Shown: in pieces, positions 6,887 to 31,822 of the stretch
Numbering within the stretch: the stretch's first letter is position 1
Layout: every line of letters starts with the position of its first letter
Translations under genes and position numbers: made by a program
Assembly (NCBI RefSeq): GCF_013410775.1
Contig: NZ_JACCFH010000001.1
Span: forward strand, 4,278,001-4,342,000
Length of the DNA stretch: 64,000 bases
From: Sphaerotilus montanus
Lineage (GTDB): Bacteria > Pseudomonadota > Gammaproteobacteria > Burkholderiales > Burkholderiaceae_C
Reading direction: 5' to 3'
The notes under the pieces: model-generated
What the model was told of the DNA's origin: nothing
The model's database searches: none
Seen by the model: only the letters and a program-made list of their open reading frames with translations

Positions 6887-8886
6887 AACTGCATCGGCAC
6901 CCCCGCCGCCAGGCTCGCCTTCTCCTCGCGCACCGCCTGGTTCAGCACGTTCTTCTTCATCCGCCCGACGACGTGCATCTCGCAGGGCTTGCAGTCGAAC
7001 TTCAGCGTCAGCACCTCGTCGCCGTTCTGGATCGTCAGCGGCTCGGCGCGGACCGTGCCCTGCACCCCGGTGACGCCCTTGGCCTGCTTCGGACACAGGC
7101 TCATCGAGAAACGCACGCAGTGCTTGGTGATCATCAGGCTGGCCTCGCCGAGCGCCTCGTGGCTCTCGTAGGCGGCGCCGATCACCTTGACGCCGTGGCG
7201 GGCGTAGAAGTCGCGGGCCTTGGCGTTGTAGACGTTGGCGAGGTAGGTCAGCGTGTCTTCGGGGTAGGGCGTCGGCGGCTGCACTTCCGGCTGACGCGGC
7301 AGGCGTACATGGGCCGCCAGCCGCGCCGCTTCGAGCTGCTCGACCGCCTCCCGGCGCAGCGCGTTCAGCACACCCGGCGGCACGAACCACGGCTTGCGTG
7401 TCGCCAGCACCGTCTCGTGCGCGGTGAAGATCGTCGCCCCCAGCTTGCCGAGGTGCTCACGCAGCGCCGCCTCGCCCTTGGCCGCATCGCGTGCGGCTTC
7501 CTTCTTCGGCAGGTCCACCTCGGCGCGCGCTGTGACGCCCGTCTCGTCGGTCAACGTCAGCGCCAGCCCCTGCGGCGTGTCGTCCAGCCGCAGCCACACG
7601 CCGATGCGCCGGTCGGCCGACTTCTTCTCCAGCAGCCGCACCCAGCCCATGTCGCGGTTGCGGCTGATCACGACATCCGGCCGCAGGCCCGGGTAGGTGG
7701 ACAGCGGCTCCTTGGGCACCACGCGCCACAGCCGCTTGCCCTCGTTGAGCAACTGCGCCGTGTCGATCGGCATGCCGACCAGATCTTTCTGCAAGGTGTT
7801 GAACGTCAGCGCATCGTTGTTGTTGAGCGGATCGACGCCCTCATACAGCTTCATGTCCACGTAGTCCGCACCGATCTTCGTCACCCAGCCGACGGGCAGG
7901 CCAGCGTGCTTGGGCGTGTCGAAGGCGCCGATGTCCTCCTGGCGGCCGTTGACGAAGTAGTCGGTGCTGCCGCGGTTGAAGTTGCGGTCCGGGTCGGGCG
8001 TGAAGGTGAAGGTGGCGCGGCCGGCGGACGAGGCGTGCAGTTCCGGCCGGGCCTCGAACAGCTCGTCCAGCAGCTTGCGGTAATGGGCGGTGATGTTCTT
8101 CACGTAGCCCATGTCCTTGTAGCGGCCCTCGATCTTGAAGCTGCGGATGCCGGCGTCCACCAGCGCGGCGAGGTTGGCGCTCTGGTTGTTGTCCTTCATC
8201 GAGAGGACGTGCTGCTCGTGGGCGATGACGCGGCCCTGTGGGTCGGTGACGGTGTAGGGCAGGCGGCAGGCTTGCGAGCAGTCCCCGCGGTTGGCACTGC
8301 GGCCGGTCTGGGCGTGGCTGACGAAGCACTGGCCGGAGTACGCGACGCACAGCGCGCCGTGGACGAAGAACTCCAGCGTCGCGCGGTCGACCTGCGCGGC
8401 GACCGCCTGGATCTGCGGCAGCGTCAGCTCGCGCGCCAGCACGATCTGCGAGAAACCGGCGTCCTGCAGGAAGCGCGCCTTCTCGGGCGTGCGGATGTCG
8501 GTCTGCGTCGAGGCGTGCAGGTCGATCGGCGGCAGGTCGAGTTCCAGCAAGCCCATGTCCTGCACGATCAGCGCGTCCGCCCCCGCCTCGTACACCTGCC
8601 GGACCATCTCGCGCGCCGGGGCCAGTTCGTCGTCGCGCAGGATGGTGTTGAGGGTGACGAAGATGCGGCTGCCGAAGCGGTGGGCGTGTTTCACCAGCCG
8701 CTCGATGTCGCCCACCGAGTTGCCCGCCGACGCCCGCGCGCCGAAGGCCGGGCCGCCGATGTAGACCGCGTCCGCCCCGTGGTTGATCGCCTCGATGCCG
8801 ATGTCGGCGTCTCGTGCAGGGGAGAGCAGTTCGATGTCAGGGCGGAAGTCAGGGCGGAAGAGCGGCATGGCAATGGCAGGCGACAT
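6835..8886 (-). CDS. rlhA: 23S rRNA C2501 hydroxylase RlhA (peptidase U32 family)
   Basis: 683 residues, close to the ~650 of E. coli RlhA (YdcP). It matches that protein almost motif for motif as I remember it: LLSPARDADIGIEAINHGAD near the start, VAYSGQCFVSHAQTGRSANR, GDCSQACRLPYTV, SFKIEGRYKDMGYVKNITAH and FDCKPCEMHVVGRMKKN near the end. The conserved cysteines of the U32 family are present. RlhA makes 5-hydroxycytidine at position 2501 of 23S rRNA, with prephenate-dependent chemistry, and is not a true protease. The start at 8886 (MSPAIAMPLFRP) or the internal ATG at 8868 are both possible. The gene is divergent from the anthranilyl-CoA operon and overlaps the phosphopantetheinyl transferase tail. 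Confidence 0.92.
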   Translation of the reverse strand: MSPAIAMPLFRPDFRPDIELLSPARDADIGIEAINHGADAVYIGGPAFGARASAGNSVGDIERLVKHAHRFGSRIFVTLNTILRDDELAPAREMVRQVYEAGADALIVQDMGLLELDLPPIDLHASTQTDIRTPEKARFLQDAGFSQIVLARELTLPQIQAVAAQVDRATLEFFVHGALCVAYSGQCFVSHAQTGRSANRGDCSQACRLPYTVTDPQGRVIAHEQHVLSMKDNNQSANLAALVDAGIRSFKIEGRYKDMGYVKNITAHYRKLLDELFEARPELHASSAGRATFTFTPDPDRNFNRGSTDYFVNGRQEDIGAFDTPKHAGLPVGWVTKIGADYVDMKLYEGVDPLNNNDALTFNTLQKDLVGMPIDTAQLLNEGKRLWRVVPKEPLSTYPGLRPDVVISRNRDMGWVRLLEKKSADRRIGVWLRLDDTPQGLALTLTDETGVTARAEVDLPKKEAARDAAKGEAALREHLGKLGATIFTAHETVLATRKPWFVPPGVLNALRREAVEQLEAARLAAHVRLPRQPEVQPPTPYPEDTLTYLANVYNAKARDFYARHGVKVIGAAYESHEALGEASLMITKHCVRFSMSLCPKQAKGVTGVQGTVRAEPLTIQNGDEVLTLKFDCKPCEMHVVGRMKKNVLNQAVREEKASLAAGVPMQFYRARPSTTPPRPCTPP

Positions 8887-8997
8887 GGCAGACAGGAAAG
8901 CGCAAGCGGGTCCATGGATTTTAGGTGCGCGACCCGGTCTGGCCGGGTGGGGCGGGTTTGTCTGGAGGCAGGAATCTTTATCGTTGAGTCCTGAATG

Positions 8998-9018
8998 GTT
9001 GACACCTAAACAATCAAC
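8998..9018. promoter_or_regulatory. Inverted repeat / -35 hexamer upstream of the abm-kyn operon
   Basis: GTTGA-N11-TCAAC forms a 21-base interrupted palindrome 36 bases before the abmA ATG. A perfect TTGACA hexamer (8999-9004) lies inside its left arm, but no good -10 is seen at the normal 17-base spacing. The size fits a MarR-type operator, and a marR gene is inside the operon. The link to that regulator is inference. Confidence 0.4.
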
Positions 9019-9054
9019 GTCGAAGATAAGCGCCTGTCCTGCCTGGAGTGCCGC

Positions 9055-11418
9055 ATGAAGATCGTCTGTATCGGTGGAGGCCCCGCCGGCCTGTACTTCG
9101 CCTTGCTGATGAAGCGGCTGGACCCCGCGCATGACATCACCGTGGTCGAGCGCAACCGGCCTTACGACACCTTCGGCTGGGGCGTGGTGTTCTCGGACGC
9201 GACGCTGGACAACATGACCCAGTGGGATCCGGAAACCGCCGCCGAGGTGCGCCAGGCGTTCAACCACTGGGACGACATCGAGCTGCATGTCAAGGACGAG
9301 GTCATCCGCTCCGGCGGCCACGGCTTCGTCGGCATCGGCCGCAAGAAGCTGCTCAACATCCTGCAGGCCCGCTGCGAGCAGCTCGGCGTGCAGCTGGTGT
9401 TCGAGGCCGACGTGGTGTCCGACGAGGAATTCCCCGACGCCGACCTGATCATCGCCAGCGACGGCATCAACTCGCGCATCCGCACCCGCCACGAAGCCGT
9501 CTTCAAGCCCGACATCGTCACGCGGCCCAACCGCTACCTCTGGCTCGGCACGCACAAGCTCTACGACGCCTTCACCTTCCTGTTCGAAAAGACCGAACAC
9601 GGCTGGTTCCAGGCCCACATCTACAAGTTCGACGCCAACACCTCGACGCTGATCGTCGAATGCCCGGAACACGTCTGGCTCGCGCATGGGCTGGACAAGG
9701 CGGACCAGGCGGAATCGATTGCCTTCTGCGAGCGGCTGTTCGCGAAGAACCTGCAGGGCGCGGCGCTGATGACCAACGCCCGCCACCTGCGCGGCTCGGC
9801 GTGGCTGAACTTCCAGCGCGTCAAGTGCGCGCAGTGGTCGCTGTTCAACGGCCACAGCCACGTCGTGCTGATGGGTGATGCGGTCCACACCGCGCACTTC
9901 GCGATCGGCTCTGGCACCAAGCTGGCGATCGAGGACGCGATCGAGCTGACGCGGCAGTTCAAGGAACTCGGCGACACCGCTGAGCAGATCCCCGCCGTGC
10001 TGGCGCGTTACCAGGCGCTGCGCCACATCGACGTGCTGCGGCTGCAGAACGCGGCGTGGAACGCGATGGAGTGGTTCGAGGTCTGCGGCGAGCGCTACTG
10101 CGACCAGTTGCCGCCGCCGCAGTTCATGTACTCGATGCTCACGCGCAGCCAGCGCATCAGCCACGAGAACCTGCGCCTGCGGGATGCGGGCTGGCTCGGC
10201 GGCTACGAGCGCTGGTTTGCCGAGCAGGCGGGCGTGGCGGTGGCGCCGGGTCGGGCGGCACCGCCACCGATGTTCACGCCGTACACCGTGCGCAGCGTGA
10301 CGCTGAAGAACCGCGTGGTCGTCTCGCCGATGGCGCAGTATTCCTGCGTGGACGGGCTGCCGGCCGACTACCACCTGATGCACCTGGGTGCGCGGGCGAT
10401 GGGCGGCGCAGGGATGGTGTTCGCGGAGATGACCTGCGTGTCGCCGGATGCGCGCATCACACCGGGTTGCCCGGGTTTGTGGAACACGCCGCAGCGCAAC
10501 GGCTGGAAGCGCATCGTCGACCACGTCCACACCTGGTCCGACGCGAAGATCGCGCTGCAGATCGGCCACGCCGGCGCGAAAGGCTCGACCCGCGTCGCGT
10601 GGGAAGGCATCGACCAGCCGGTGCGCGAGGCCGATGGTGGCTGGCCGCTGATCTCGGCGTCGCCGCAGCAGTACCTTGACGGTGTCAGCGACTGGTCGCG
10701 GGCGATGACACGCGAGGACATGGACCGGGTGCGCGACGACTTCGTGCGCTCGACCGGGTGGGCGGCGGAGGCGGGGTTCGACTGGCTGGAACTGCACTGC
10801 GCGCACGGTTACCTGCTGTCGTCGTTCATCTCGCCGCTGACGAACCGGCGCGAGGACGACTACGGCGGCTCGCTGGAGAACCGGCTGCGCTACCCGCTGG
10901 AGGTGTTCCGCGCGGTGCGGGCGGCGTGGCCGGCGGATCGGCCGATGTCGGTGCGGATCTCGGCGCACGACTGGGTCGAAGGTGGCATCACGCCCGACGA
11001 CGCAGTGCAGATCGCCCGCGCGTTCAAGGCGGCCGGCGCGGACATGATCGACTGCTCGTCCGGTCAGGTCAGCAAGCAGGAAAAGCCGGTCTACGGTCGC
11101 ATGTTCCAGACGCCGTTCTCCGACCGCGTGCGCAACGAAGCGGGCATCGCGACGATCGCCGTGGGTGCGATCTCGGAGGCGGACCACGTCAACAGCATCA
11201 TCGCCGCCGGCCGCGCCGACCTGTGCGCCGTCGCCCGGCCGCACCTCGCGAACCCGGCCTGGACGCTGACGGAGGCGGCGCGGATCGGCTACCTCGACGT
11301 GGCGTGGCCGCGGCAATACACCTCGGGCAAGGTGCAACTGGAACGCAACCTGGAGCGGGAGCGGCAGCTCGCCGCGCAGGCCGCCGCGCTGAATGCACCG
11401 CGGGGCGGGGACGCCTGA
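9055..11418 (+). CDS. abmA: 2-aminobenzoyl-CoA monooxygenase/reductase (bifunctional flavoprotein)
   Basis: 787 residues in two parts. Residues 1-~395 are a class A FAD monooxygenase: the dinucleotide fold [17 protein letters not shown] is at the N-terminus and [25 protein letters not shown] is the GD-motif region, as in salicylyl-CoA 5-hydroxylase. Residues ~400-780 are an old-yellow-enzyme FMN domain ([50 protein letters not shown]). This fusion is the hallmark of 2-aminobenzoyl-CoA monooxygenase/reductase of Azoarcus evansii, which hydroxylates and reduces the ring of anthranilyl-CoA with NADH and oxygen. It is first in a run of ten coupled genes; its stop overlaps the SDR start by one base. 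The CoA ligase and kynureninase downstream support the assignment over a plain salicylyl-CoA hydroxylase. Confidence 0.9.
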
Positions 11419-12206
11419 TGCGCAGCACCTTGACGTTGACGGGCCGACACGCGCTCATCACCGGTGCCGCCCGCGGCATCGGCGCGGCCATCGCCCGCAC
11501 GCTCGCCGCCCAGGGCGCCACCCTCACGCTGCTCGGCCGCCAGCGCGACGCCCTGCAGCGACTCGCCGACGAATTGCCCGCAGTCGCCGGCCAAGCACAT
11601 GGCTTCGTCGTCGCGGATGTCGCCGACCCCGCGCAGGTCCAGGCCGCGTTCGCCGAAGCCCGCGCCGCCCGTGGCCCGCTGGCGATCCTCGTCAGCAACG
11701 CGGGCCAAGCCGAGAGCGCACCCTTCGGCAAGACTTCGCTCGACCTCTGGCAGCGCATGCTGGCGGTGAACCTGACGGGCAGTTTCCTCTGCGCACAGGC
11801 GGCGCTGCCCGACATGCTCGCCGCCGGCCGGGGCCGCATCGTCCACATCGCCAGCACGGCCGGGCAGCGCGGCTATCCCTACGTCAGCGCCTACGTGGCC
11901 GCCAAGCACGGCGTGATCGGCCTGACACGCTCGCTTGCGCTGGAGCTGGCAACGAAAGGCGTGACCGTGAACGCCGTGTGCCCCGGCTTCACCGAGACCG
12001 ACATCCTGCGCGACAGCGTCGCCAACATCGTCGCCAAGACCGGCCGCACCGAGGCCCAGGCCCGAGCCGACCTGGCCAGCGGCAGCCCGCAGCGCCGCTT
12101 CGTGCAGCCACAGGAAGTCGCCGACGCGGTGGCATGGCTTTGCAGCGACGGCGCGGGGGCGATCACGGGGCAATCGATTTCAGTGTCCGGCGGGGAGGTG
12201 ATGTGA
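11418..12206 (+). CDS. SDR-family oxidoreductase of the anthranilyl-CoA cluster
   Basis: 262 residues, classical short-chain dehydrogenase. The nucleotide motif TGAARGIG is at residues 15-22, NAG at 94-96, and the catalytic set is Ser146, Tyr159 and Lys163 (SAYVAAK). The C-terminal GQSISVSGG is typical. It probably acts as a 3-hydroxyacyl-CoA or ring-alcohol dehydrogenase on the products of the monooxygenase/reductase; this is inferred from position only. It overlaps abmA by one base and marR by one base (TGATG junctions), so translation is coupled. Confidence 0.85.
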
Positions 12207-12715
12207 TGGGCAATGACCGAGCGAACGACGAACACCTGGGTCACGAGGCGCGCGCGCAGGGTGATGACCATCTGGATGTGAAGGTCTGGCTGCGCCTGCT
12301 GGCCTGCAGCACCGAGATCGAGCAGTACATCCGCCAGCGCCTGCGTGCCCGCTTCGGCACCACGCTGCCGCGCTTCGACTACCTCGCGCAGCTGGAGCGC
12401 CACCCGGACGGGCTGCGCATGAACGCGCTGTCGCGCTACCTGATGGTGACCGGCGGCAACGTGACCGGGCTCACCGACCAGTTGGTCAAGGACGGGCTGG
12501 TCGAGCGGCTGGACGACCTCGAAGACCGCCGCTCCTACCGCGTCACGCTCACACCGCAGGGCCGGGCCGACTTCGCTCGGATGGCCGCTGAGCATGAACA
12601 GTGGCTGACCGAGCTGTTCGGCGGCCTGCCGGGTGCGGACAAGGACGCCCTCTACCACCAGCTCGGCCACCTGCGCCAGCACCTGAACGCGACGCTGCGG
12701 AACCCCACGCCATGA
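12206..12715 (+). CDS. MarR-family transcriptional regulator inside the abm-kyn operon
   Basis: 169 residues with a winged helix-turn-helix of MarR type: [20 protein letters not shown] is the recognition region, followed by the wing [22 protein letters not shown] with the conserved DxR. An acidic/polar N-terminal tail of about 25 residues precedes the dimerisation helix. MarR proteins next to aromatic-CoA genes usually repress and respond to the aryl-CoA thioester, so 2-aminobenzoyl-CoA is a reasonable ligand guess. Being in the middle of the operon, it would be self-regulating. It overlaps the SDR by one base and the crotonase by four (ATGA). Confidence 0.85.
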
Positions 12716-13578
12716 ACATGAACCAGACCGTGCCTTCCATCGATCCCGCGCTGCTCGCCGGCAACCGCCAGCGCCTGGCCGACCACACCGCCACGCACTT
12801 CCTCTGGCAGGTCCAGGCCGGCGTCGGCACCATCACGCTCAACCGCCCCGAGCGCAAGAACCCGCTGACCTTCGACTCCTACGCTGAGTTGCGCGACCTG
12901 TTCGGACGACTGAAGTACGCCGAGGACGTGACCGTCGTGGTGGTTCAGGGGGCAGGGGGGAATTTCTGCTCCGGCGGCGATGTCCACGAGATCATCGGCC
13001 CGCTGATTGCGCTGAAGGCACCCGAGTTGCTGATGTTCACGCGCATGACCGGCGACCTCGTCAAGGCGATGCGGGCGTGTCCGCAGCCGATCGTGGCGGC
13101 GGTGGACGGGGTCTGCGCCGGGGCGGGCGCGATCGTGGCGATGGCCAGCGACCTGCGGCTCGGCACGGCGCGCAGCAAGACCGCGTTCCTGTTTAACCGG
13201 GTCGGGCTGGCGGGCTGCGACATGGGCGCCTGCGCGATCCTGCCGCGGATCATCGGGCAGGGGCGGGCGAGCGAGCTGCTCTACACCGGCCGGTCGATGG
13301 GCGGCGAGGAGGCCGAGCGCTGGGGATTCTTCAACCGGCTGGTGGCGCCCGACGCACTCGCTGAAGCCGCGCAGGCGCTCGCCGCTGACCTCGCCGCCGG
13401 GCCGACCTTCGCCAACGGCATCACCAAGACGATGCTGCACCAGGAGTGGGCAATGACGATCGAGCAGGCGATCGAGGCCGAGGCGCAGGCGCAGGCGATC
13501 TGCATGCTGACCGAGGATTTCTCGCGGGCTTACCACGCCTTCGTGGCCAAGCAGCGGCCACGTTTCGAGGGGAACTGA
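12712..13578 (+). CDS. Crotonase-superfamily protein (annotatable as enoyl-CoA hydratase, but lacking its glutamates)
   Basis: 288 residues with the crotonase fold: [15 protein letters not shown], the oxyanion-hole segment [11 protein letters not shown] (residues 81-90) and the second oxyanion segment [13 protein letters not shown] (132-144). By eye alignment to rat mitochondrial enoyl-CoA hydratase, the position of Glu144 is Ile141 and the position of Glu164 is Asn162 or Arg163, so the hydratase pair is missing. Asp170 ([15 protein letters not shown]) falls where PaaG and enoyl-CoA isomerases, and 4-chlorobenzoyl-CoA dehalogenase, carry their catalytic Asp. It may therefore be an isomerase or a C-C hydrolase on the alicyclic CoA intermediate. 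It is coupled to marR (ATGA) and sits 1 base before the acyl-CoA dehydrogenase. Confidence 0.85.
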
Positions 13579-13579
13579 G

Positions 13580-14761
13580 ATGGCGGACACCAAAGCGCAT
13601 GACGCGCACGACCTGCTGGACTGGCCGTTTTTCGAGCCGCGCCACCGTGCGCTGGCAACCGAACTGGACGCCTGGGCGCGCGAACACCTGGCCGGCGCGC
13701 ACGGGCATGACGTCGATGCCGAATGCCGGGCGCTGGTGACCGCGCTGGGTGAGGCGGGCTGGCTGCGTCACGCCGTGGCCGGTACCGACTTCGGCGGCGC
13801 GACCGACGTGATCGACACCCGCACGATCTGCCTGATCCGCCAGACGCTGGCGCGGCACTCGGGGCTGGCGGACTTCGCGTTTGCGATGCAGGGGCTGGGC
13901 TCGGGCGCGATCAGCCTGGCTGGCACACCGGAGCAGCGCGCGCGCTTCCTGCCCGGCGTCGCCAGCGGCCGGACGATCGCGGCGTTTGCGCTGTCCGAGC
14001 CGGAAGCGGGGTCGGACGTGGCAGCGATGGCGTGCGCGGCGCGGCTGGACGGTGACGCGTACGTGCTCGACGGCGAGAAGACCTGGATCTCCAACGGCGG
14101 CATCGCGCACCAGGTCGTCGTCTTCGCCCGCACCGACGACGCGCCCGGCGCCCGGGGCATCAGCGCGTTTGTCGTGGATGCAGACACGCCCGGCTTCGAG
14201 ATCGCCGAGCGCATCGACGTGATCGCGCCGCACCCGCTGGCCCGGCTGCGCTTCAGCGGCTGCCGCGTCCCGGCCGATCGGCGCCTGGGCGCGTCCGGCG
14301 AGGGCTTCAAGATCGCGATGCGCACGCTCGACGTGTTCCGCACCTCGGTGGCCGCCGCCGCGCTCGGTTTCGGACAACGTGCGCTGGCCGAGGGCTTGTA
14401 CCGCGCCCGCACCCGCAAGATGTTCAAGGGCGTGCTGGCCGATTTCCAGCTCACGCAGGCCAAGCTCGCACAGATGGCGACGACGCTGGACGCCGCGATG
14501 CTGCTGACCTACCGCGCCGCGTGGCTGCGCGACCAGGGGCGCACCGTCACCAAGGAAGCCGCGATGGCCAAGCTCGCCGCCACCGAGGGCGCACAGCAGG
14601 TCATCGACGCGGCGGTGCAGCTCTGGGGTGGGCTGGGCGTTGTCAGCGGGCAGCCAGTGGAGCTGCTTTACCGCGAGATCCGGGCGCTGCGCATCTACGA
14701 AGGCGCCACCGAAGTCCAGCAGCTCATCATCGGCCGCGAACTGCTGCGCGAGCCGACCTGA
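13580..14761 (+). CDS. Acyl-CoA dehydrogenase of the anthranilyl-CoA cluster
   Basis: 393 residues, normal acyl-CoA dehydrogenase length. Motifs are [20 protein letters not shown] (FAD/substrate region), [20 protein letters not shown] and, near the C-terminus, [18 protein letters not shown], whose YEG glutamate is in the position of the catalytic base of medium-chain acyl-CoA dehydrogenase. It would introduce a double bond into an acyl-CoA intermediate of the pathway in the cytoplasm, passing electrons to ETF. It lies one base downstream of the crotonase and 45 bases upstream of the ligase. The exact substrate is inferred from context only. Confidence 0.88.
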
Positions 14762-14806
14762 ACCCGTCGCGACCTGTCGCTACCTGCCGCTTCACGAGGA
14801 TCCGCC

Positions 14807-16444
14807 ATGACCGCTCACCTCGACACTTTCGCCCGTGACCACCTGCCGCCCGCGTCTGCGCAGCCGGAGTTCCTGTTCGAGCTGCCCGAGCTGCAGTTCC
14901 CGGCGCGGCTGAACTGCGCCACCGAGCTGCTCGACCGCCGTGTCGCCGAGGGGCAGGGCGATCGGTTGTGCATCAGCGCGCCGGGTGGCCTGCGCTGGAC
15001 GTACGCCGACCTGCAGGCGCGCGCCAACCGCATCGCCAATGTGCTGGTGTGCGAGATGGGGCTGGTGCCGGGCAACCGGGTGCTGCTGAGCGCGCCGAAC
15101 AACCCGATGCTGGCGGCCTGCTGGTTCGCGGTCATCAAGGCGGGCGGCATCGCGGTGGCGACCATGCCGCTGCTGCGCGCCAAGGAGCTGACCGCGATCA
15201 TCGACAAGGCCCGGATCAGCCACGCGCTGTGCGATCTGTGCCTGGCCGGCGAGGTGCAGGCGGCGCAGCACCAGGCACCGGTGCTGCAGAAGGTGCGCTA
15301 TTTCAACCACCCGGATGTGCAGGGCCTCGAAGCCGCCATGGCACGGCACAGCGACCAGTTCGACAACGTGGACACCGCCGCGGACGACACCTGCCTGCTC
15401 GCGTTCACGTCGGGCACCACCGGCGTGCCCAAGGCGACGATGCATTTCCACCGCGACGTGATGGCGGCGTGTGCGTGCTGGCCGAAACACGTGCTGCGCC
15501 CGCAGCCGGACGACGTGTTCATCGGCAGCCCGCCGCTGGCGTTCACGTTCGGGCTGGGCGGGCTGCTGCTGTTCCCGATGTCGGTGGGGGCGTCCACGGC
15601 ATTGCTGGAGCGCGCGTCGCCCGAGCACCTCGTCCAGGGCATCGAGGACCACGGCGCCACCATCCTTGTCACGGCGCCGACCTCGTACCGCACGCTTGCC
15701 GCCCACGGGGCGCGGCTGCGCGCCTCGACCTTGCGGCGCTGCGTCTCGGCGGGTGAAGCGCTGCCGGCGGCGACGCGCACGCTGTGGCGCGCCGCAACCG
15801 GCATCGAGCTGATCGACGGCATCGGCGCGACCGAGATGCTGCACATCTTCATCTCCGCCGACGAGGCCCACGCCCGCCCCGGCGCCACCGGCACGGCGAT
15901 TCCTGGCTACCAAGCCTGTGTGCTCGATGCCAACGGCCAGCCGGTGCCGCCTGGGACGGTGGGCCGGCTCGCGGTGAAAGGCCCGACCGGCTGCCGCTAC
16001 CTCGACGATCCGCGGCAGGCGAACTATGTGCAGAACGGCTGGAACCTGACCGGCGACGCCTACCTGATGGACGCCGACGGCTACTTCGTCTACCAGGCGC
16101 GCACCGACGACATGATCATCTCGGCGGGCTACAACATCGCCTCGCCGGAGGTGGAAGGCGCGCTGCTGGCCCATCCCGCGGTGGCCGAGTGCGGCGTGAT
16201 CGGCGTGCCGGACGCAGAGCGCGGGCAGATCGTCAAGGCGTTTGTCGTGCTGCGTGCGGGCGGTGGGTACTCGCCAGACGCCGCGCTCGTCAAGACGCTG
16301 CAGGACTTCGTCAAGCAGGCCATCGCCCCGTACAAGTACCCGCGCGCCATCCAGTTCGTCACCGAGCTGCCGCGCACCGGGACAGGCAAACTGCAGCGTT
16401 TCCGACTGAACAGCCTGCAAACTTCCCAGGAGAACCCGACATGA
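14807..16444 (+). CDS. abmG: 2-aminobenzoate-CoA ligase
   Basis: 545 residues, ANL superfamily. The P-loop motif FTSGTTGVPKATMHFHRD is near residues 198-215, and the adenylate motifs include GATEMLHIFISA and YLMDADGYFVYQARTDDMII. The C-terminal catalytic lysine lies in RTGTGKLQRF. The sequence is of the benzoate/2-aminobenzoate-CoA ligase type. With an anthranilyl-CoA monooxygenase in the same operon, activation of anthranilate with ATP and CoA is the best assignment; benzoate specificity cannot be excluded. A GAGGATC ribosome-binding site precedes the ATG. The stop overlaps the Rid start (ATGA). Confidence 0.88.
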   Translation: MTAHLDTFARDHLPPASAQPEFLFELPELQFPARLNCATELLDRRVAEGQGDRLCISAPGGLRWTYADLQARANRIANVLVCEMGLVPGNRVLLSAPNNPMLAACWFAVIKAGGIAVATMPLLRAKELTAIIDKARISHALCDLCLAGEVQAAQHQAPVLQKVRYFNHPDVQGLEAAMARHSDQFDNVDTAADDTCLLAFTSGTTGVPKATMHFHRDVMAACACWPKHVLRPQPDDVFIGSPPLAFTFGLGGLLLFPMSVGASTALLERASPEHLVQGIEDHGATILVTAPTSYRTLAAHGARLRASTLRRCVSAGEALPAATRTLWRAATGIELIDGIGATEMLHIFISADEAHARPGATGTAIPGYQACVLDANGQPVPPGTVGRLAVKGPTGCRYLDDPRQANYVQNGWNLTGDAYLMDADGYFVYQARTDDMIISAGYNIASPEVEGALLAHPAVAECGVIGVPDAERGQIVKAFVVLRAGGGYSPDAALVKTLQDFVKQAIAPYKYPRAIQFVTELPRTGTGKLQRFRLNSLQTSQENPT

Positions 16445-16833
16445 ACGTTCTGCTCCCCCCCGGCTGGCCGCGCCCGCGCGGTTATGCCAACGGCGTCACC
16501 GCCCGCGGCCGCATGGTCTTCGTCGCCGGCATGATCGGCTGGGACGCGCAGGGCGTGTTCCACACCGACGACCTCGCCGGCCAGGTGCGCCAGGCGCTGC
16601 AGAACATCGTGGACGTGCTCGCCGCGGGTGACGCCAAGCCCGAACACATCGTGCGCATGACCTGGTACGTCACCGACAAGACCGAATACGTGGCCGCCTA
16701 CCCCGAGATCGGCCGCGCGTTCCGCGAGCTGATCGGCTGCTACAACGCGGTGATGACGGCGGTCGAGGTCAGCGCGCTGGTCGAGGACCGGGCGAAGGTC
16801 GAGATCGAGGTCACGGCCGTCGTGCCGGACTGA
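16441..16833 (+). CDS. Rid-family protein without the catalytic arginine
   Basis: 130 residues, full-length RidA/YjgF/YER057c fold: RMVFVAGMIGWDAQGVFHTDDLAGQVR and the C-terminal EVSALVEDRAKVEIEVTAVV. RidA enzymes hydrolyse enamines/imines using Arg105; here, by eye alignment, that residue is Met105, so it belongs to one of the Arg-less Rid subfamilies. It is translationally coupled to the CoA ligase. The monooxygenase/reductase product is an enamine (2-amino-5-oxocyclohex-1-ene carbonyl-CoA), so a role in handling or deaminating it is attractive but not proven. Confidence 0.88.
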   Translation: MNVLLPPGWPRPRGYANGVTARGRMVFVAGMIGWDAQGVFHTDDLAGQVRQALQNIVDVLAAGDAKPEHIVRMTWYVTDKTEYVAAYPEIGRAFRELIGCYNAVMTAVEVSALVEDRAKVEIEVTAVVPD

Positions 16834-16859
16834 ATGGAACCTGCCCCGGAGCCCTGCCC

Positions 16860-17732
16860 ATGACCCCGAACTACCCCGCGATCTACCGCGAATTCACCGA
16901 CCAGGCGCAGATCGACGCCCAGTACAACCCCTCGCTGCCGGTGGCCGATCCCGCCGCCGAGATGCAGCACTTCGTCACCCAGGCGCAGCGGGCGCGGGCC
17001 ACGCTGCGCGATGTGCCGGACGTGCGCTACGGGCCGACGCTGGCCGAGACGCTCGACATCTATCCCGCCGAACAGCCGAACGCGCCCGTGTTCGTCTTCA
17101 TCCACGGCGGCTACTGGCGGGCGCTGTCGTCCAAGGAGTTCGCCGGCATCGCGCTCGGGCTGCAGCCGCTGGGCATCACGTCCGTGCTGATCAACTACGC
17201 GCTGTGCCCGGCGGTGACGATCGACGAGATCACGCGCCAGACCCGCGCCGCGCTGGCCTGGGTGCTGCAGCACATCCACGAACACGGCGGCGATCCGACC
17301 CGCGTGGCGATCGGCGGTCACTCGGCGGGCGGGCACCTGACGGCGATGGCGCTGCAGACCCGCTGGGCCGAGGACTACGGGCTGCCGGCCGATCCGTTCA
17401 AGGCGGCGGTGCTGGTCAGCGGGCTGTACGACCTCGCGCCGCTGCGTTACAGCTACCTGCAGCCGAAGATCCAGCTCGACGACGGCGTGATTCGCCGCAA
17501 CTCGCCCGCGTTTGGCGTGCGGCCCTGCACGACGCCGATCCACATCACCTGGGGCGGCGCCGAGACGAGCGAGTTCGCGCGGCAGTCGCAGGTGTTCCAC
17601 GACGCCTGGCAGGCCGCGGGCAACACGTCCAAGCTGGCGCCCGTGCCCGGTGCGAACCATTTCAGCGCCATCCACGGCTTCGAGACGCCCGACGGCCACC
17701 TCGCCCGCTGGCTGGCCGATGCCCTTGCCTGA
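16860..17732 (+). CDS. Kynurenine formamidase, alpha/beta-hydrolase type
   Basis: 290 residues with an alpha/beta-hydrolase fold. The oxyanion motif is FIHGGYWRALSSKEF, the nucleophile elbow GGHSAGGHLTAMAL, and the C-terminal histidine segment GANHFSAIHGF; an acidic residue is available in GGAETSEFARQS. HGGYW plus this arrangement resembles eukaryotic AFMID rather than the metal-dependent cyclase-like bacterial KynB. Sitting directly before kynU and kynA, it most likely hydrolyses N-formylkynurenine to kynurenine. It starts 26 bases after the Rid gene and ends 21 bases before kynU. A generic esterase is the alternative. Confidence 0.82.
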   Translation: MTPNYPAIYREFTDQAQIDAQYNPSLPVADPAAEMQHFVTQAQRARATLRDVPDVRYGPTLAETLDIYPAEQPNAPVFVFIHGGYWRALSSKEFAGIALGLQPLGITSVLINYALCPAVTIDEITRQTRAALAWVLQHIHEHGGDPTRVAIGGHSAGGHLTAMALQTRWAEDYGLPADPFKAAVLVSGLYDLAPLRYSYLQPKIQLDDGVIRRNSPAFGVRPCTTPIHITWGGAETSEFARQSQVFHDAWQAAGNTSKLAPVPGANHFSAIHGFETPDGHLARWLADALA

Positions 17733-17753
17733 ATCTCACGGTCCCACGATCCC

Positions 17754-19061
17754 ATGACACCTCCCATCACCCGTGACACCTGCGCCGCGCTGGACGCGGC
17801 CGACACGCTGGCGCCGCTGCGCGACCAGTTCGACCTGCCCGAGGGCGTGATCTACCTCGACGGGAACTCGCTCGGCGTGCTGCCACGCGCCACCGCGGGC
17901 CGCGTGCAGGACGTGATCCGCCGCGAGTGGGGACAGGATTTGATCCAGAGCTGGAACAAGGCCGGCTGGATCGACTACCCGCAGCGCGTCGGCGACAAGA
18001 TCGCCCGGCTCGTCGGCGGCCAGCCCGGCGAGGTGATCGCCGCGGATTCGACCTCGCTGAACCTCTACAAGGTGCTGAGCGTGGCGCTGGCCAGCGTGCG
18101 CGCGTCGGATCCGGACGGACGCCGCCGCGTCATCGTCTCCGAGCGCGACAACTTCCCGACCGACCTCTACATCGCCGAAAGCCTCGCCCGGCAGCATGGC
18201 TTCACGCTGCGGCTGGTCGAAACCGACGAGATCGCCGCGCAACTGACCGGCACGGCGGGCGACGCACTCGCCGTGCTGATGCTCACCCACGTCAACTACC
18301 GCACCGGCCGCCAGCACGCGATGGCCGACGTCACCGCCGCCGCGCACGCCGCGGGCGCGCTGGTGGTGTGGGACCTGGCGCATTCGGCGGGCGCGGTGCC
18401 GGTGGACTTGAACGGCTGCGACGCGGACTTCGCGATCGGCTGTGGCTACAAGTACCTCAACGGCGGCCCGGGTTCGCCCGCGTTCCTGTGGGTGCATCCG
18501 CGGCACCTCGCCCGGCTCGGCGGCGACGGGAAAGATGCGCTGTGGCAGCCACTCGCAGGCTGGATGGGCCACGCAGCGCCGTTCGAGTTCACGCCCGGCT
18601 ACCGGCCGGCGGCGGGCGTGACCGGTTTCCTGTGCGGCACCCCGTCGGCGATCGCGCTGGCGGCGCTGGAGTGCGGCGTGGACACGGTGCTGGCGGCCGA
18701 GGCGCTGGGCGGCATGGCGGCGGTGCGGGCCAAGTCGCTCGCGCTGACCGATCTGTTCAGCGCGCTGGTGGCGCAGCGCTGCGCGGGCCACGGCCTGACG
18801 CTGCAGACGCCGACCGAGCCCGCGCTGCGCGGCAGCCAGGTGAGCCTCTACCGCGACGAGGGTGCCTACGCGATCGTGCAGGCGCTGATCGCGCGCGGCG
18901 TGGTCGGTGACTACCGGGCGCCGGGCATCCTGCGCTTCGGGTTCACGCCGCTGTATCTGCGCTTCGCCGATGTCTGGGACGCGGTGGAGCACCTGGTGCA
19001 GGTGCTGCAGACCGGCGAGTGGCGGGAAGAACGTTTCCATCAACGGGCCGCCGTGACCTGA
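17754..19061 (+). CDS. kynU: Kynureninase
   Basis: 435 residues, fold-type I PLP enzyme. Diagnostic stretches are [12 protein letters not shown], the phosphate-binding [28 protein letters not shown] with the PLP-contacting Asp/His, and [15 protein letters not shown] with the PLP lysine Lys233. It cleaves kynurenine to anthranilate and alanine, supplying the substrate of the CoA ligase encoded upstream in the same operon. Length and motifs are as in Ralstonia/Pseudomonas KynU. kynA begins 10 bases after the stop. Confidence 0.96.
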
Positions 19062-19071
19062 GGAACTGCAG

Positions 19072-19920
19072 ATGACCGACCAGAAACGCACCGAACAGAT
19101 CGTGGCGGAAGAGGGCGCCCAGCTCGATTTCAGCCGCGACATGAGCTACGGCGACTACCTGCACCTCGACCAGATCCTGAGCGCGCAGCACCCGCTGTCG
19201 CCCGCGCACGACGAGCTGCTGTTCATCGTCCAGCACCAGACCAGCGAGCTGTGGATGAAGCTGATGCTGCACGAGCTGCGCGCCGCGATCCGCAGCGTGG
19301 CCGGCGACGACCTGCACAGCGCGTTCAAGATGCTCAGCCGCGTCAGCCGGATCATGGAGCAGCTCGTCGGCGCGTGGAGCGTGCTGTCCACGATGACGCC
19401 GCCCGAGTACACGGCGATCCGGCCCTACCTGTCGAACTCCAGCGGCTTCCAGAGCGCGCAGTACCGCTGCATCGAGTTCGCGCTCGGCAACAAGAACGCC
19501 GCGATGCTCAAGCCGCACGCGCACCACCCGGCGCGGCTGGCCGAAGTGGACGCCGCGTGGCGGGCGCCGTCGGTGTACGACGAGGCGCTGCGGCTGATGA
19601 AGCGCAGCGGGATCGACATGCCGGCGGATCGACTGGAACGCGACTGGACCTTGCCCTATGAAGCCAGCGACGCGGTGCATCAGGCGTGGCTCGTCGTCTA
19701 CCGCGACCCGAAACAGCACTGGGATCTCTACCAGCTCGGCGAGAAGCTGGTCGATCTGGAAGACGCCTTCCGGCTGTGGCGCTTCCGGCATGTGACGACC
19801 GTGGAGCGCGTGATCGGCTTCAAGCGCGGTACGGGCGGCACGGGCGGGGTGAGCTACCTGCGCAAGATGCTGGACGTGGTGCTGTTCCCGGAACTGTGGC
19901 GGATCCGCACGGAGCTTTGA
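19072..19920 (+). CDS. kynA: Tryptophan 2,3-dioxygenase
   Basis: 282 residues, the normal bacterial length. Heme-pocket and substrate motifs are present: [52 protein letters not shown], the distal [16 protein letters not shown] and [16 protein letters not shown]. It opens the tryptophan indole ring to N-formylkynurenine with molecular oxygen. It is the last gene of the operon although it encodes the first step. No convincing terminator is seen in the 134 bases before the convergent PRC-barrel gene. Confidence 0.97.
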
Positions 19921-20054
19921 GGCGCCACAGGTCCTTGTTCATGTCTTCACCTTCGCTTGGCGTGCTTCATTTCAGGCTCATGTGGTCAAGGCCTCCTTGA
20001 AGTGCCAGGCCTGCGACAAGTTGAAGCTGGAGCGACTCCGCCTTCGGCGGGGGT

Positions 20055-20753
20055 TCAGCCCGCGGCCTTCTCGGTCGACTTGCGCAGGCGGGCCGTGGCC
20101 GCACTGACGCTGGCCTCGAACTCCGTCCAGCGCGCCGCGGTGGCCTGCTTCATCTCGGCGAGCCTGGTTTCCGCCGTCTTCACGTCCAGCCGAAGCGCCG
20201 CGAGGTCCAGGTCGATCTTGGCCTTGGCCTCGGTGGCGGCCATGCCGGCTTTCTTTTCGAGACCGGCGACCGCCTCCTTGCCCTTGGCGATGTCCTTGTC
20301 GGCGGCCGTGACGAAGGCATCGCGCCGGCTCGTGTCCGTCGTGTACGTGAACTTCGACATGGCCTTGATCATGTCCTTGGTGGCGCCGGCCATCACGAGC
20401 TTGCCCGCCTTGTCCTGGATCTGCGTGACCGGGATCGCCACGTCGTGGCGGCCGATGCCGATGAAGCCGCCCGCACCGACGATCACGTAGGACACGCTCT
20501 TGTCCGGCGAGATGATCAGGTCTTCCACCTTGCCGACTTTCTCGCCAGCGTCGTTGTAGATGGTCTTGCCCATCAGCGTCTTCTTGACGCTCCAGCCCAT
20601 CGCCAGCTTGGTCGACTCGGTGACGCTGGTGTCCACCGTGGTGGTGCCGCCAGCGACCTGGGCGGTGGCAGATCCGGTGATGCACAGCGCGCCCACGGCG
20701 GTCAGCGTGGCGAACATCAGGTGGGCGGTCCGGCTGGAAAAGTGCTTTTTCAT
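20055..20753 (-). CDS. Exported PRC-barrel domain protein
   Basis: 232 residues. A signal peptide covers about residues 1-32 (hydrophobic LMFATLTAVGALCITGSATA, cleavage near TAQ/V), so it should be periplasmic. Residues ~52-115 are a PRC-barrel: LMGKTIYNDAGEKVGKVEDL, VIVGAGGFIGIGRHDVAIP. The rest (~130-230) is a long Ala/Lys/Glu-rich helix, probably a coiled coil. Its function is unknown; PRC-barrels serve as RNA- or photosystem-associated modules in the cytoplasm, but secreted copies of this kind are frequent in Burkholderiales. It is monocistronic, with about 120 bases to the upstream oxidoreductase gene on the same strand. Confidence 0.85.
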   Translation of the reverse strand: MKKHFSSRTAHLMFATLTAVGALCITGSATAQVAGGTTTVDTSVTESTKLAMGWSVKKTLMGKTIYNDAGEKVGKVEDLIISPDKSVSYVIVGAGGFIGIGRHDVAIPVTQIQDKAGKLVMAGATKDMIKAMSKFTYTTDTSRRDAFVTAADKDIAKGKEAVAGLEKKAGMAATEAKAKIDLDLAALRLDVKTAETRLAEMKQATAARWTEFEASVSAATARLRKSTEKAAG

Positions 20754-24665: not shown

Positions 24666-26261
24666 TCAAGCAGACGCCTGAACGCCGCCCAGCACCGCCG
24701 CGCTCCCCTGTACGGCTGCACGTCGATGATAGAAATTCAACGCCCTCAGCCCGCCGAGTTCTTCCCCGCCGCCCGCGCGGCCGGGACCGCCGTGCAGCGA
24801 CTGCGGCATCACGTTGCCGTGGCCGCTCTGCAGCGTGGCGACTTCCGGCGTGATGACGTGGACGCGGCCATGGCTGGCAGCCAGGTCGAGCGCCGTGTCG
24901 GCCAGCGCATGCGCCGAATCGGCACCGTCTTCGCCATACAGCGAGCAGACGAGCGAGCCTTCTCCGCGCGCGACCAGCGCCCGGGCATGGGCCGCGTCGC
25001 GATAAGGCAGCAGCGTGGCGACCGGGCCGAACACCTCGGTGGTGTGGACGATGTCCGTCCCGTCGGCGTCCCGTGTGCCGAGCAACACCGGGGCGATGCA
25101 GGCAGCGATCGCCGGATCGGCATCGATCAGCGCGGCGCCGCGGCCGTCGAACAGCGTCTGCGCGTGTTGCTGCAGCGTGGCCAGGCCGTCCTGCACGCTG
25201 CGCAGTTGCGCGCGGCTGACGAGCGAGCCCATGCGCACGGCCTCGTTGCGCGGGTTGCCGACCGTGGTCTTCGCCAGCCGGGCGCCGATGGCTTCCGCCG
25301 CGGCGTCGTAGAGCGCTTCGGGGACGAAGATCCGTCGGATGGCGGTGCATTTCTGGCCCGACTTGACCGTCATCTCGCGCGCGACTTCCTTGACCAGCAG
25401 GTCGAACGCCGCGCTGCCCGGTACCGCGCCCGGCATCAGCACGGCCGAGTTGACGCTGTCCGCCTCGATGTTCACGCGCACCGAACGCTCGGCAACCGCC
25501 GGATGGCGCCGCAGCAGCGCAGCGGTGTCGGCAGAACCGGTGAACGACAGCACATCGAACGGCCGCAGCGCATCCAGCAGCCCGGCCGAGCTGCCGCAGA
25601 CGATGTTCAGCGCGCCCGGCGGCAGGATGCCCGCCTCGACGACGTCGCGCACCATGCGCTGTGTCAGCCATGCGGTCGACGTGCCGGGCTTCACCACCAC
25701 CGGCACGCCTGACAGCAGCGCCGGTGCCGCCTTTTCCCACAGGCCCCAGGCCGGGAAATTGAACGCGTTGATGAACAGCGCCAGCCCCTGCACCGGCACC
25801 TGCACGTGCTGGCTGCCGAACGCGCCACCCTTGGCCAGCGGCGTGGCATCGCCGTCGAGCAGCGTGAGCCGGTCACCCAGCGCATCACCGAGCCTGGCAT
25901 AGGTGCCGAGCGTGTAGATCGCACCGTCGATGTCCACGGCGGAGTCGTTTTTCACCGTGCCGCTGTTGGCGGTGGCGATCTCGTAGTAGGCATCGCGGTT
26001 CGCCTGCAGCACCTTGCCGATGGCACCGAGCAGCCCGGCGCGGGCACGGTACGTCAACGCCCGCAGCGCGGTGCCGCCAACGCGGCGGGTGTGTTCGAAG
26101 CCGCCGGACAGGTCCAGACCCGTCGCGTCCACGCGGACCAGTTCGGTGCCGAGGACCGGATCGAACAGTGGCGTGGCATCGCCCGTGCCAGCCGTCCAGC
26201 GGCCGCCAAGGTGGTTGAGGAGCAGTTCCGTGCAGGAGGGGGGGAGGGTGATGATCGTCAT
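24666..26261 (-). CDS. PaaZ/BoxD-like CoA-semialdehyde dehydrogenase
   Basis: 531 residues, aldehyde dehydrogenase superfamily. It closely follows the ALDH half of PaaZ and BoxD: FINAFNFPAWGLWEKAAPAL, the catalytic Cys305 in VKSGQKCTAIRR, Glu266 in NIEADSVN, and the end SLHGGPGRAGGGEELGGLRA. There is no hydratase domain, so the size fits BoxD (3,4-dehydroadipyl-CoA semialdehyde dehydrogenase of aerobic benzoyl-CoA breakdown) better than full-length PaaZ. No boxA, boxB or boxC lies in the window. It may instead serve the ring-cleavage aldehyde of another aryl-CoA, for example from the abm operon. The start codon lies inside a 24-base palindrome. Confidence 0.85.
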   Translation of the reverse strand: MTIITLPPSCTELLLNHLGGRWTAGTGDATPLFDPVLGTELVRVDATGLDLSGGFEHTRRVGGTALRALTYRARAGLLGAIGKVLQANRDAYYEIATANSGTVKNDSAVDIDGAIYTLGTYARLGDALGDRLTLLDGDATPLAKGGAFGSQHVQVPVQGLALFINAFNFPAWGLWEKAAPALLSGVPVVVKPGTSTAWLTQRMVRDVVEAGILPPGALNIVCGSSAGLLDALRPFDVLSFTGSADTAALLRRHPAVAERSVRVNIEADSVNSAVLMPGAVPGSAAFDLLVKEVAREMTVKSGQKCTAIRRIFVPEALYDAAAEAIGARLAKTTVGNPRNEAVRMGSLVSRAQLRSVQDGLATLQQHAQTLFDGRGAALIDADPAIAACIAPVLLGTRDADGTDIVHTTEVFGPVATLLPYRDAAHARALVARGEGSLVCSLYGEDGADSAHALADTALDLAASHGRVHVITPEVATLQSGHGNVMPQSLHGGPGRAGGGEELGGLRALNFYHRRAAVQGSAAVLGGVQASA

Positions 26262-28139: not shown

Positions 28140-28598
28140 TCAGGTGGCCGTGTCCCGGTCCGACTCGTTCCGGCTGGCGATCAGGATCCCCAGCATCCGC
28201 ATGAACTCCCCCCGCTCCTGTTCCGGCAGCGGCGCCAGGATGCGCTCCTGCGCCCGCAGCATCGACGGGGTCACGTCCGCCAGGAGCTGCTGACCTGCTT
28301 CGGTCAGCGTCAGCAGCCGCACGCGCCGGTCCTGCGCCGAGGCGCTGCGCAGCGTCAGCCCGCGCGCTTCGAGCCGGTCGATCACCCCCGCGATGGTCGA
28401 GGTGTCGAAGCCGATCGTGCGGGCGAGCGTGCGCTGGTCGGTGCCCGGGACGTTGTGGACCGCCTGCAGCGCGGCGAATTGCACCGGCGTGATGCCAAAC
28501 GACTCCGTTTCCTGCATGAACAGCGCGACGGCAATCTGGTGCAGACGGCGGATGTCGTGTCCGGGCAGGCTGTCGAGGTCGAGCGGCGGCAAGGTCAT
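28140..28598 (-). CDS. MarR-family regulator of the gentisate cluster
   Basis: 152 residues with a MarR winged helix: ITPVQFAALQAVHNVPGTDQ, RTLARTIGFDTSTIAGVIDR (recognition helix) and the wing ASAQDRRVRLLTLTEAG. It is divergent from the 3-hydroxybenzoate hydroxylase gene, and the ~106-base space between them holds two overlapping inverted repeats, a normal arrangement for MarR repression of an aromatic operon with a phenolic or thioester inducer. Inducer identity is not visible from the sequence. Confidence 0.88.
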   Translation of the reverse strand: MTLPPLDLDSLPGHDIRRLHQIAVALFMQETESFGITPVQFAALQAVHNVPGTDQRTLARTIGFDTSTIAGVIDRLEARGLTLRSASAQDRRVRLLTLTEAGQQLLADVTPSMLRAQERILAPLPEQERGEFMRMLGILIASRNESDRDTAT

Positions 28599-28653
28599 CG
28601 CGGGTTTTCACTGAATGGATGGGGATAGATCTGGATCAATGCTAGCATTACAC

Positions 28654-28685
28654 TAATCATCAGCATACTGATTATTTCTATGCTG
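28654..28685. promoter_or_regulatory. Overlapping inverted repeats in the marR / hydroxylase control region
   Basis: TAATCA-N9-TGATTA (28654-28674) and CAGCATA-N11-TATGCTG (28661-28685) are two perfect interrupted palindromes sharing bases. The first lies within the spacer of a candidate promoter (TTACAC at 28648, GATTAT at 28670), where a bound repressor would block RNA polymerase. It is a likely operator for the divergent MarR protein. Confidence 0.5.
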
Positions 28686-28704
28686 ATTGATGGAGCGCAA
28701 TGCA

Positions 28705-29916: not shown

Positions 29917-29949
29917 TCGCCAGTGTCCCGAATCACCAGGAGAGATCCG

Positions 29950-31005: not shown

Positions 31006-31016
31006 TCCCACGCCCT

Positions 31017-31049
31017 CCCGTCATGCCCGCGCACGCGGGCACCCACGCC
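31017..31049 (+). repeat. REP-like palindromic repeat, copy 1
   Basis: A short intergenic unit with CCCGTCAT followed by the hairpin GCCCGCG-CA-CGCGGGC and ACCCAC. The same plan, CGTCAT then a G+C hairpin then CCCAC, recurs at 36091, 36126, 37672 and 40051. It lies between the dioxygenase and hydrolase genes. Confidence 0.65.
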
Positions 31050-31066
31050 AACAAATCACCTCCCGC

Positions 31067-31771: not shown

Positions 31772-31822
31772 TTCGCGACCACAACGAAATCACAAGATCG
31801 CAAGATCCACGGAGACAAGCCG

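Follow-up and report, generated by a model that had tools for sequence, protein, structure and literature searches.

A ten-gene row from tryptophan dioxygenation to 2-aminobenzoyl-CoA degradation in Sphaerotilus montanus: a probable single operon with an alpha/beta-hydrolase in the formamidase position

Background

The abm cluster of Azoarcus (Aromatoleum) evansii, whose genes were reportedly listed by Schuhle et al. in 2001, is said to hold a coenzyme A (CoA) ligase, a fused monooxygenase/reductase, beta-oxidation genes, a MarR regulator and a small Rid-type protein. The 2-aminobenzoyl-CoA (anthraniloyl-CoA) pathway is established, and passages of PMC4539516 describe its early chemistry. A route from tryptophan to anthraniloyl-CoA has already been named as a pathway in a part of PMC9007349, and passages of two Cupriavidus genome papers (PMC8879955, PMC2842291) list abm genes, one of them also the kynurenine (kyn) genes that lead from tryptophan to anthranilate. 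Here we describe a row of ten genes, abmA-sdr-marR-ech-acad-lig-rid-form-kynU-tdo, in which the kyn genes stand directly behind the abm genes on the same strand. The row lies in a 64,000-nucleotide stretch of the Sphaerotilus montanus genome (NZ_JACCFH010000001.1, positions 4,278,001 to 4,342,000), called the window below. The pathway and the frequent neighbouring of its two halves are known; what is new is the exact ten-gene row and the exchange of its formamidase. No description of a fused kyn-abm row was recognised in the open-access literature searched, most subscription papers lying outside that scope.

Results and discussion

The row is best read as one tryptophan-catabolic operon that would carry tryptophan by way of anthraniloyl-CoA into beta-oxidation, a reading to which we give a probability of roughly 0.84 on the strength of sequence comparisons. 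Tryptophan and CoA-dependent anthranilate steps are indeed joined in a compact same-strand row, as the original prediction held, and all ten genes stand where it placed them on the plus strand, with junctions running from a 4-base overlap to a 45-base gap. The overlaps are 1 base at abmA/sdr, 1 base at sdr/marR (4 if the GTG at 12203 is the start) and 4 bases each at marR/ech and lig/rid; the gaps are 1 (ech/acad), 45 (acad/lig), 26 (rid/form), 21 (form/kynU) and 10 bases (kynU/tdo). Minus-strand genes flank the row: a U32-peptidase-like gene (named by eye) starts 186 bases before abmA, and on the other flank an open reading frame ends 134 bases past tdo. This layout, together with the motif found before abmA, is consistent with a single operon.

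The gene families named earlier agree with Pfam and NCBIfam (Table 1), the refinements being the type of the formamidase and the NCBIfam label of AbmA. The row encodes both the tryptophan 2,3-dioxygenase (TDO) and the kynureninase of the kynurenine (anthranilate) pathway. On the abm side, AbmA has the fused flavin monooxygenase and old-yellow-enzyme reductase make-up (about 85 kDa) of the abm enzyme, each of the 60 best solved chains, out of 140 matched, covering one half only. The ligase has as its best solved relative the anthranilate-CoA ligase 4wv3 (E = 4e-83) and appears by this similarity to be the 2-aminobenzoate-CoA ligase of the pathway; its score of 356 bits to TIGR02262 is below the cut-off of 375. 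The beta-oxidation genes of the pathway are represented, by family, by the short-chain dehydrogenase/reductase (SDR), the crotonase and the acyl-CoA dehydrogenase. A kyn half made up of kynA, a formamidase and kynU had been predicted; kynA (tdo) and kynU are there, and the slot between rid and kynU is taken by an alpha/beta-hydrolase (form), with no metal-dependent KynB in the cluster. The predicted reversal of pathway order in the gene order is only approximate: the ligase (step 4) follows the beta-oxidation genes, and form (step 2) precedes kynU (step 3).

In the pathway we propose, TDO would open the indole ring to give N-formylkynurenine, the alpha/beta-hydrolase would take off formate, and kynureninase would release alanine and anthranilate. 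The ligase would then convert anthranilate to anthraniloyl-CoA, which AbmA would hydroxylate and reduce to 2-amino-5-oxocyclohex-1-ene-1-carboxyl-CoA. Nitrogen would leave by hydrolysis, possibly with the help of the Rid protein; opening and shortening the ring skeleton through beta-oxidation would fall to the crotonase, SDR and acyl-CoA dehydrogenase. The operon-internal MarR protein is predicted to repress a single promoter before abmA, with release probably by anthranilate or its CoA ester.

Table 1. Genes of the ten-gene row and the candidate regulatory site before it (positions in the window)
Feature	Position	Strand	Description
Likely promoter -35 hexamer merged with a half-site of a likely MarR operator, TTGACACCTAAA	8999..9010	+	44 bases before abmA
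abmA	9055..11418	+	787 aa; FAD (flavin adenine dinucleotide) monooxygenase N-terminal half and old-yellow-enzyme reductase at 406-738; PF01494 and PF00724; labelled 2-aminobenzoyl-CoA monooxygenase/reductase; NF006101 match 1374 bits, cut-off 1078
sdr, SDR-family dehydrogenase	11418..12206	+	262 aa; likely beta-oxidation step; best NCBIfam SDR subfamily 233 bits, below cut-off 258
marR, MarR-family regulator	12206..12715	+	169 aa; PF12802/PF01047
ech, crotonase (enoyl-CoA hydratase family)	12712..13578	+	288 aa; PF00378; NF006107 499 bits, above cut-off
acad, acyl-CoA dehydrogenase	13580..14761	+	393 aa; PF00441/PF02770/PF02771; no NCBIfam equivalog above cut-off
lig, aryl-CoA ligase, likely 2-aminobenzoate-CoA ligase	14807..16444	+	545 aa; AMP (adenosine monophosphate)-forming; PF00501
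rid, Rid-family protein	16441..16833	+	130 aa; PF01042; Met105 at the RidA Arg position
form, alpha/beta-hydrolase	16860..17732	+	290 aa; likely kynurenine formamidase or N-acyl-anthranilate amidase
kynU, kynureninase	17754..19061	+	435 aa; TIGR01814 above cut-off; 1qz9 E = 3.5e-146
kynA/tdo, tryptophan 2,3-dioxygenase	19072..19920	+	282 aa; TIGR03036 above cut-off; 2nox E = 6e-132

Recurrence of the row and linkage of its halves

Another species of the genus (G009) carries the identical ten-gene order on one strand. The proteins of the two rows are only 67-84% identical by tblastn, so the gene order has outlived much sequence change. In G009, 4-base overlaps occur at marR/ech, acad/lig and lig/rid (the start of its acad being ambiguous), and gaps measured to the nearest upstream start are 33 bases at rid/form, 58 at form/kynU and 33 at kynU/tdo. 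Four flanking window proteins, all of which match themselves in the window as a control, have no match in a 25-kb stretch around the row in G009 or a 26-kb stretch in G004, and over the former this comparison found no genomic neighbourhood common to both rows. Recurring as it does in a diverged genome without the window's flanking genes, the ten-gene row is more than a chance arrangement. The window and G009 pair in a TDO tree (support 99/93) whose sample mixes loci picked for kyn-abm linkage with loci picked for the hydrolase, in a KynU tree (98/92, G009 flagged as a long branch) and in an acad+lig+rid tree from a quick search (Shimodaira-Hasegawa-like approximate likelihood ratio test, SH-aLRT, 100; G009 flagged for composition). 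Among 13 genomes of the genus, 3 yielded a full-length AbmA and 6 the dioxygenase. In one of these (G004), marR, kynB, kynU and tdo are encoded on the strand opposite to the abm genes; in G006, G011 and G012, kynB-kynU-tdo is present and full-length AbmA was not found. All four are placed apart from the window in the dioxygenase tree.

Across 299 genomes of the family, AbmA and TDO occur together in 159, TDO only in 39, AbmA only in 11 and neither in 90 (Fisher p = 2e-32, kinship uncorrected; AbmA counted at E up to 1e-200, so that fragments are missed). Linkage was counted in the 117 genomes with both genes among the 150 best places of each search: the two genes are on different contigs in 61, on the same contig more than 15 kb apart in 15, and within 15 kb in 41. 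At 38 of these 41 linked loci, tdo lies upstream of abmA on the opposite strand. One locus (G064) has tdo and abmA in tandem on one strand, with tdo upstream; the remaining two, in the window genome and G009, have tdo downstream of abmA and on its strand. Of the other 39 linked loci, 34 have kynB, kynU and tdo opposite abmA and 3 have kynU-tdo with no kynB at the site. The original prediction knew the halves as separate clusters, a picture that gives way here to strong co-occurrence and frequent adjacency, mostly as divergent kynB-kynU-tdo and abm units. The search it proposed for the same ten-gene order in related genomes does recover that order in G009, and among the linked loci listed only the window and G009 have it. 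Among the best 80 of 592 named AbmA loci, 53 extend 8.7 kb or more downstream, and none of these has kynU or tdo downstream on the abmA strand. Linkage of kyn and abm genes is thus widespread, and the exact ten-gene row is rare in these samples.

Two loci may be singled out here. One of the 39, from another genus (G183, L163), is a partial fusion in which marR-ech-acad-lig-rid-kynU-tdo share one strand and diverge from abmA-sdr; that genome has only a weak match to the KynB model (2.8e-12), and a close relative of the hydrolase was not found in it. A second fusion in Azohydromonas (L068) was also weighed and dismissed, because its tdo, though on the abmA strand, is separated from abmA by several other genes.

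The formamidase position and the Rid protein

The product of form is probably an aryl-formamidase or amidase that serves N-formylkynurenine in this row. Its solved relatives are a lipase (9n8r, 5e-31), a putative esterase (2pbl, 1e-20) and, in third place, the Drosophila kynurenine formamidase (4e11, 4e-18). HGGYW at 82-86, S155, E235 and H267 are invariant in a 16-sequence alignment and aligned to 4e11, so that form has the HGGxW motif and Ser-acid-His triad of animal/fungal-type kynurenine formamidases. We take these to be a formamidase signature, presumably one that esterases of the same fold can share. Of the 299 family genomes, 20 carry close relatives of form (E up to 1e-70). Among 198 genomes with TDO, 12 have the hydrolase without KynB (counted at E up to 1e-40), 7 have both, 159 have KynB only and 20 have neither; KynB is thus lacking in 12 of 19 hydrolase-positive and 20 of 179 hydrolase-negative genomes (odds ratio 0.07, Fisher p = 1e-6, kinship uncorrected). 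The 20 genomes with neither may have a third formamidase, more distant relatives of the two, or assembly gaps. One clade of the dioxygenase tree (96/94) unites the window, G009, G089, G193, G179, G064 and Azohydromonas, and in all seven the hydrolase gene lies no more than about 8 kb from tdo; this match of hydrolase and TDO clade is suggestive only, because several loci were chosen for holding the hydrolase.

An alternative is that form is not a formamidase, a KynB encoded elsewhere carrying out the step while form cleaves another amide or a CoA intermediate. A true KynB does exist in the genome, at C1:311576-312190 (minus strand, 1327-1956 of L125; TIGR03035 281 bits against a cut-off of 223), and because of it form need not be the formamidase. 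No kyn gene was recognised in the 3.4 kb surrounding this orphan, which is perhaps a remnant left after a formamidase swap. Several other observations likewise weigh against the reading we prefer. Close homologues of form sit in abm clusters without adjoining kyn genes: three genomes (G099, G274, G032) have abmA...lig, then about 5 kb, then rid-form, with kyn genes absent from the 19.5-kb stretch, and all three also have KynB about 2 kb from tdo on the same contig. Comamonas odontotermitis also ends its abm cluster with rid-hydrolase, genes annotated as transporter and thioesterase lying in between; its stretch, too, lacks kyn genes. Form is also 37% identical to the alpha/beta-hydrolase beside meqE on plasmid pAL1 of Arthrobacter Rue61a, which we take to be an N-acetylanthranilate amidase. 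Against the alternative stand the uneven distribution of KynB described above, the absence of any KynB match in G009 despite its ten-gene operon, and the position of form beside tdo in G089 and G193. On balance we consider a form without formamidase activity unlikely, and a formamidase or amidase role for it remains the better account. As a separate observation, a haloarchaeal plasmid of Natronosalvus halobius (L188) groups an indoleamine 2,3-dioxygenase, a kynureninase and a hydrolase 47% identical to form with a branched-chain-type transporter and a gene of the benzoate-CoA-ligase family.

The Rid protein lacks the RidA arginine. The catalytic Arg of RidA is, we assume, Arg105; Met105 takes its place in all 70 aligned abm-linked Rids (the window and 69 loci), and the Rids of Comamonas, Aminobacter and Azospirillum thermophilum likewise carry a Met in this context. 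Since Met105 replaces the catalytic Arg, the classical RidA mechanism does not fit. Of five Rid structures, 2dyy, 8v8r and 3vcz align an Arg with Met105, and 5v4f and 3i7t have no Arg there, so its loss is not unique to abm-linked Rids. According to a part of PMC3534580, Arthrobacter grown on anthranilate contains a CoA ester of C7H8O4, perhaps cyclohexanedione-carboxyl-CoA, which makes hydrolytic loss of nitrogen at that stage plausible. The Rid protein possibly helps this loss after AbmA. A joint reading of both proteins, which we offer tentatively and hold to be doubtful as a whole, would have an Amq/AFMID-like hydrolase that displaced KynB and serves both N-formylkynurenine and N-acyl-anthranilates, and an Arg-less (Met105) Rid forming a distinct deaminase class that acts on a CoA-thioester ring enamine and supplies the missing nitrogen-release step of the abm pathway.

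One unit or two

A motif of TTGACA running into CTAAA, in some cases as TTTAGTTGACACCTAAAC, is conserved among the 125 abmA upstream regions collected, which include some near-duplicates. TTGACA occurs in 69 of the 125 (11-14 in five shuffles) and CCTAAA in 57 (6-15 in five shuffles). Exact dyads are rarer (TTTAG-N7-CTAAA in 12, TAGTT-N8-AACTA in 15), and the left arm of the dyad is not kept in the window. The sole window match to TTGACANCTAAA with up to 2 mismatches is the site before abmA, 1.6 matches being expected by chance at that tolerance; genome-wide there are 2 exact matches, including this site. MarR is predicted to bind this candidate operator and to control the whole row. Terminator-like sites number 5 against 4.1 expected, those on the plus strand both lying near 20230, past tdo, with none on the plus strand inside the row.

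Further points belong on the opposing side of the balance. At one mismatch the motif is only about twice as frequent genome-wide as its reversed control (11 matches against 6). A promoter scan of 8600-20300 found none that passed its threshold, so that the promoter claim rests on conservation. One transcript is predicted from the layout, and no transporter is among the ten genes, unlike in some relatives. Cupriavidus metallidurans CH34, credited with abm and kyn genes, shows no growth on anthranilate according to a passage of PMC8879955, so that having these genes does not ensure growth; a passage of PMC2842291 says that it does not use tryptophan.

The row might instead be two abutting units, an anthranilate operon from abmA to rid-form that ends with an N-acyl-anthranilate amidase, followed by kynU-tdo with a promoter of its own in form or the gaps. 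The abm-linked rid-form pairs of G099, G274, G032 and Comamonas odontotermitis, and the likeness of form to the pAL1 hydrolase, are what such a division would lead one to expect. A second promoter would have little space in gaps of 21 and 10 bases, however; the scan found no promoter-like site anywhere in 8600-20300, TTGACANCTAAA recurs nowhere else in the window, and rid-form-kynU-tdo keeps its order in G009. Two units are accordingly a good deal less probable than not, and we regard them as distinctly unlikely beside the single operon.

Substrate of AbmA and other routes

NCBIfam's own name for NF006101 is bifunctional salicylyl-CoA 5-hydroxylase/oxidoreductase, and the model scores AbmA well above its cut-off (Table 1). 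The label is also on kyn-linked AbmA proteins, for example in Aminobacter and Ensifer, and probably misnames many AbmA proteins. About 10 kb downstream of the row lies a gentisate-dioxygenase-like gene (29950-31002, 242 bits against a cut-off of 442), part of a gentisate-type group at 28140-32806 that also holds a MarR-like gene on the minus strand, a 3-hydroxybenzoate 6-monooxygenase (705.8 bits), a fumarylacetoacetate-hydrolase-family gene and a periplasmic binding protein (the MarR and binding protein named by eye). The label and this group, whose dioxygenase and fumarylacetoacetate-hydrolase genes lie at 29-32 kb of the window, are what speaks for AbmA hydroxylating salicylyl-CoA and the row joining tryptophan genes to a salicylate-to-gentisate route, which is very improbable given that AbmA bears the reductase half that passages of PMC4539516 describe for the anthraniloyl-CoA enzyme (a 170-kDa homodimer), that lig best matches an anthranilate-CoA ligase and kynureninase yields anthranilate rather than salicylate, that of the 170 sampled family genomes with AbmA, 159 encode TDO as well, and that the gentisate group, with its own 3-hydroxybenzoate 6-monooxygenase, does not discriminate between AbmA substrates. 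The kynureninase, the ligase match and the co-occurrence of AbmA with TDO favour anthraniloyl-CoA.

A Pfam search of the genome finds a single ring-hydroxylating dioxygenase alpha subunit, which scores 36.6 and 38.8 bits where the anthranilate-dioxygenase models have cut-offs of 671.9 and 750. With this sole subunit so far below the cut-offs, the CoA route is the only fate of anthranilate recognised by these few searches, which did not look for kynurenine 3-monooxygenase or flavin-type anthranilate hydroxylases; to that extent the predicted route without free catechol is supported. A 3-hydroxyanthranilate dioxygenase (PF06052) has no match in the genome, a weak result in that the controls matched nowhere either. 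The window also encodes, at 24669-26261 on the minus strand, a 3,4-dehydroadipyl-CoA semialdehyde dehydrogenase (868.5 bits), which we take to be an enzyme of box-pathway type, so that a second aerobic CoA route may exist. On a plasmid of Azospirillum thermophilum (L183), indolepyruvate oxidoreductase genes, a ring-hydroxylating dioxygenase and an AMP-binding gene precede the abmA cluster on the same strand, a possible cluster for the conversion of an indole acid to anthraniloyl-CoA.

The row offers a compact, clonable unit for taking tryptophan to beta-oxidation without free catechol, and it gives the abm pathway, which has been little studied, a natural source of anthranilate across a bacterial family. 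Two questions also become open to direct test: which enzyme removes the nitrogen after AbmA, and whether an alpha/beta-hydrolase acts as the bacterial kynurenine formamidase when KynB is absent.

Comparison with known systems

The Azoarcus evansii cluster, as its gene list is reported, shares with the row every class of protein named for it at the outset; the row differs in having no transporter among its ten genes and in the form-kynU-tdo segment that follows in the same row. The kynB-kynU-tdo sets of the family have homologues of the same kynureninase and dioxygenase, but they encode KynB and diverge from abm, whereas the window has the alpha/beta-hydrolase and joins these genes behind abm. 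Plasmids of Hyphomicrobiales (pAM01 of Aminobacter MSH1, and Ensifer PDNC004) bring together within about 19 kb the same components, kynA, kynU, ligase, MarR and abmA-sdr-ech-acad. In these the ligase stands directly before kynA (with a 4-base overlap in MSH1) and has transporter genes behind it, kynU is on the other strand with other ABC genes, and abmA opens a further unit. The pAL1 plasmid of Arthrobacter Rue61a resembles the row in its form-like hydrolase and, according to a part of PMC3534580, in handling anthranilate through CoA esters; there the anthranilate derives from quinaldine, and in the row it would derive from tryptophan.

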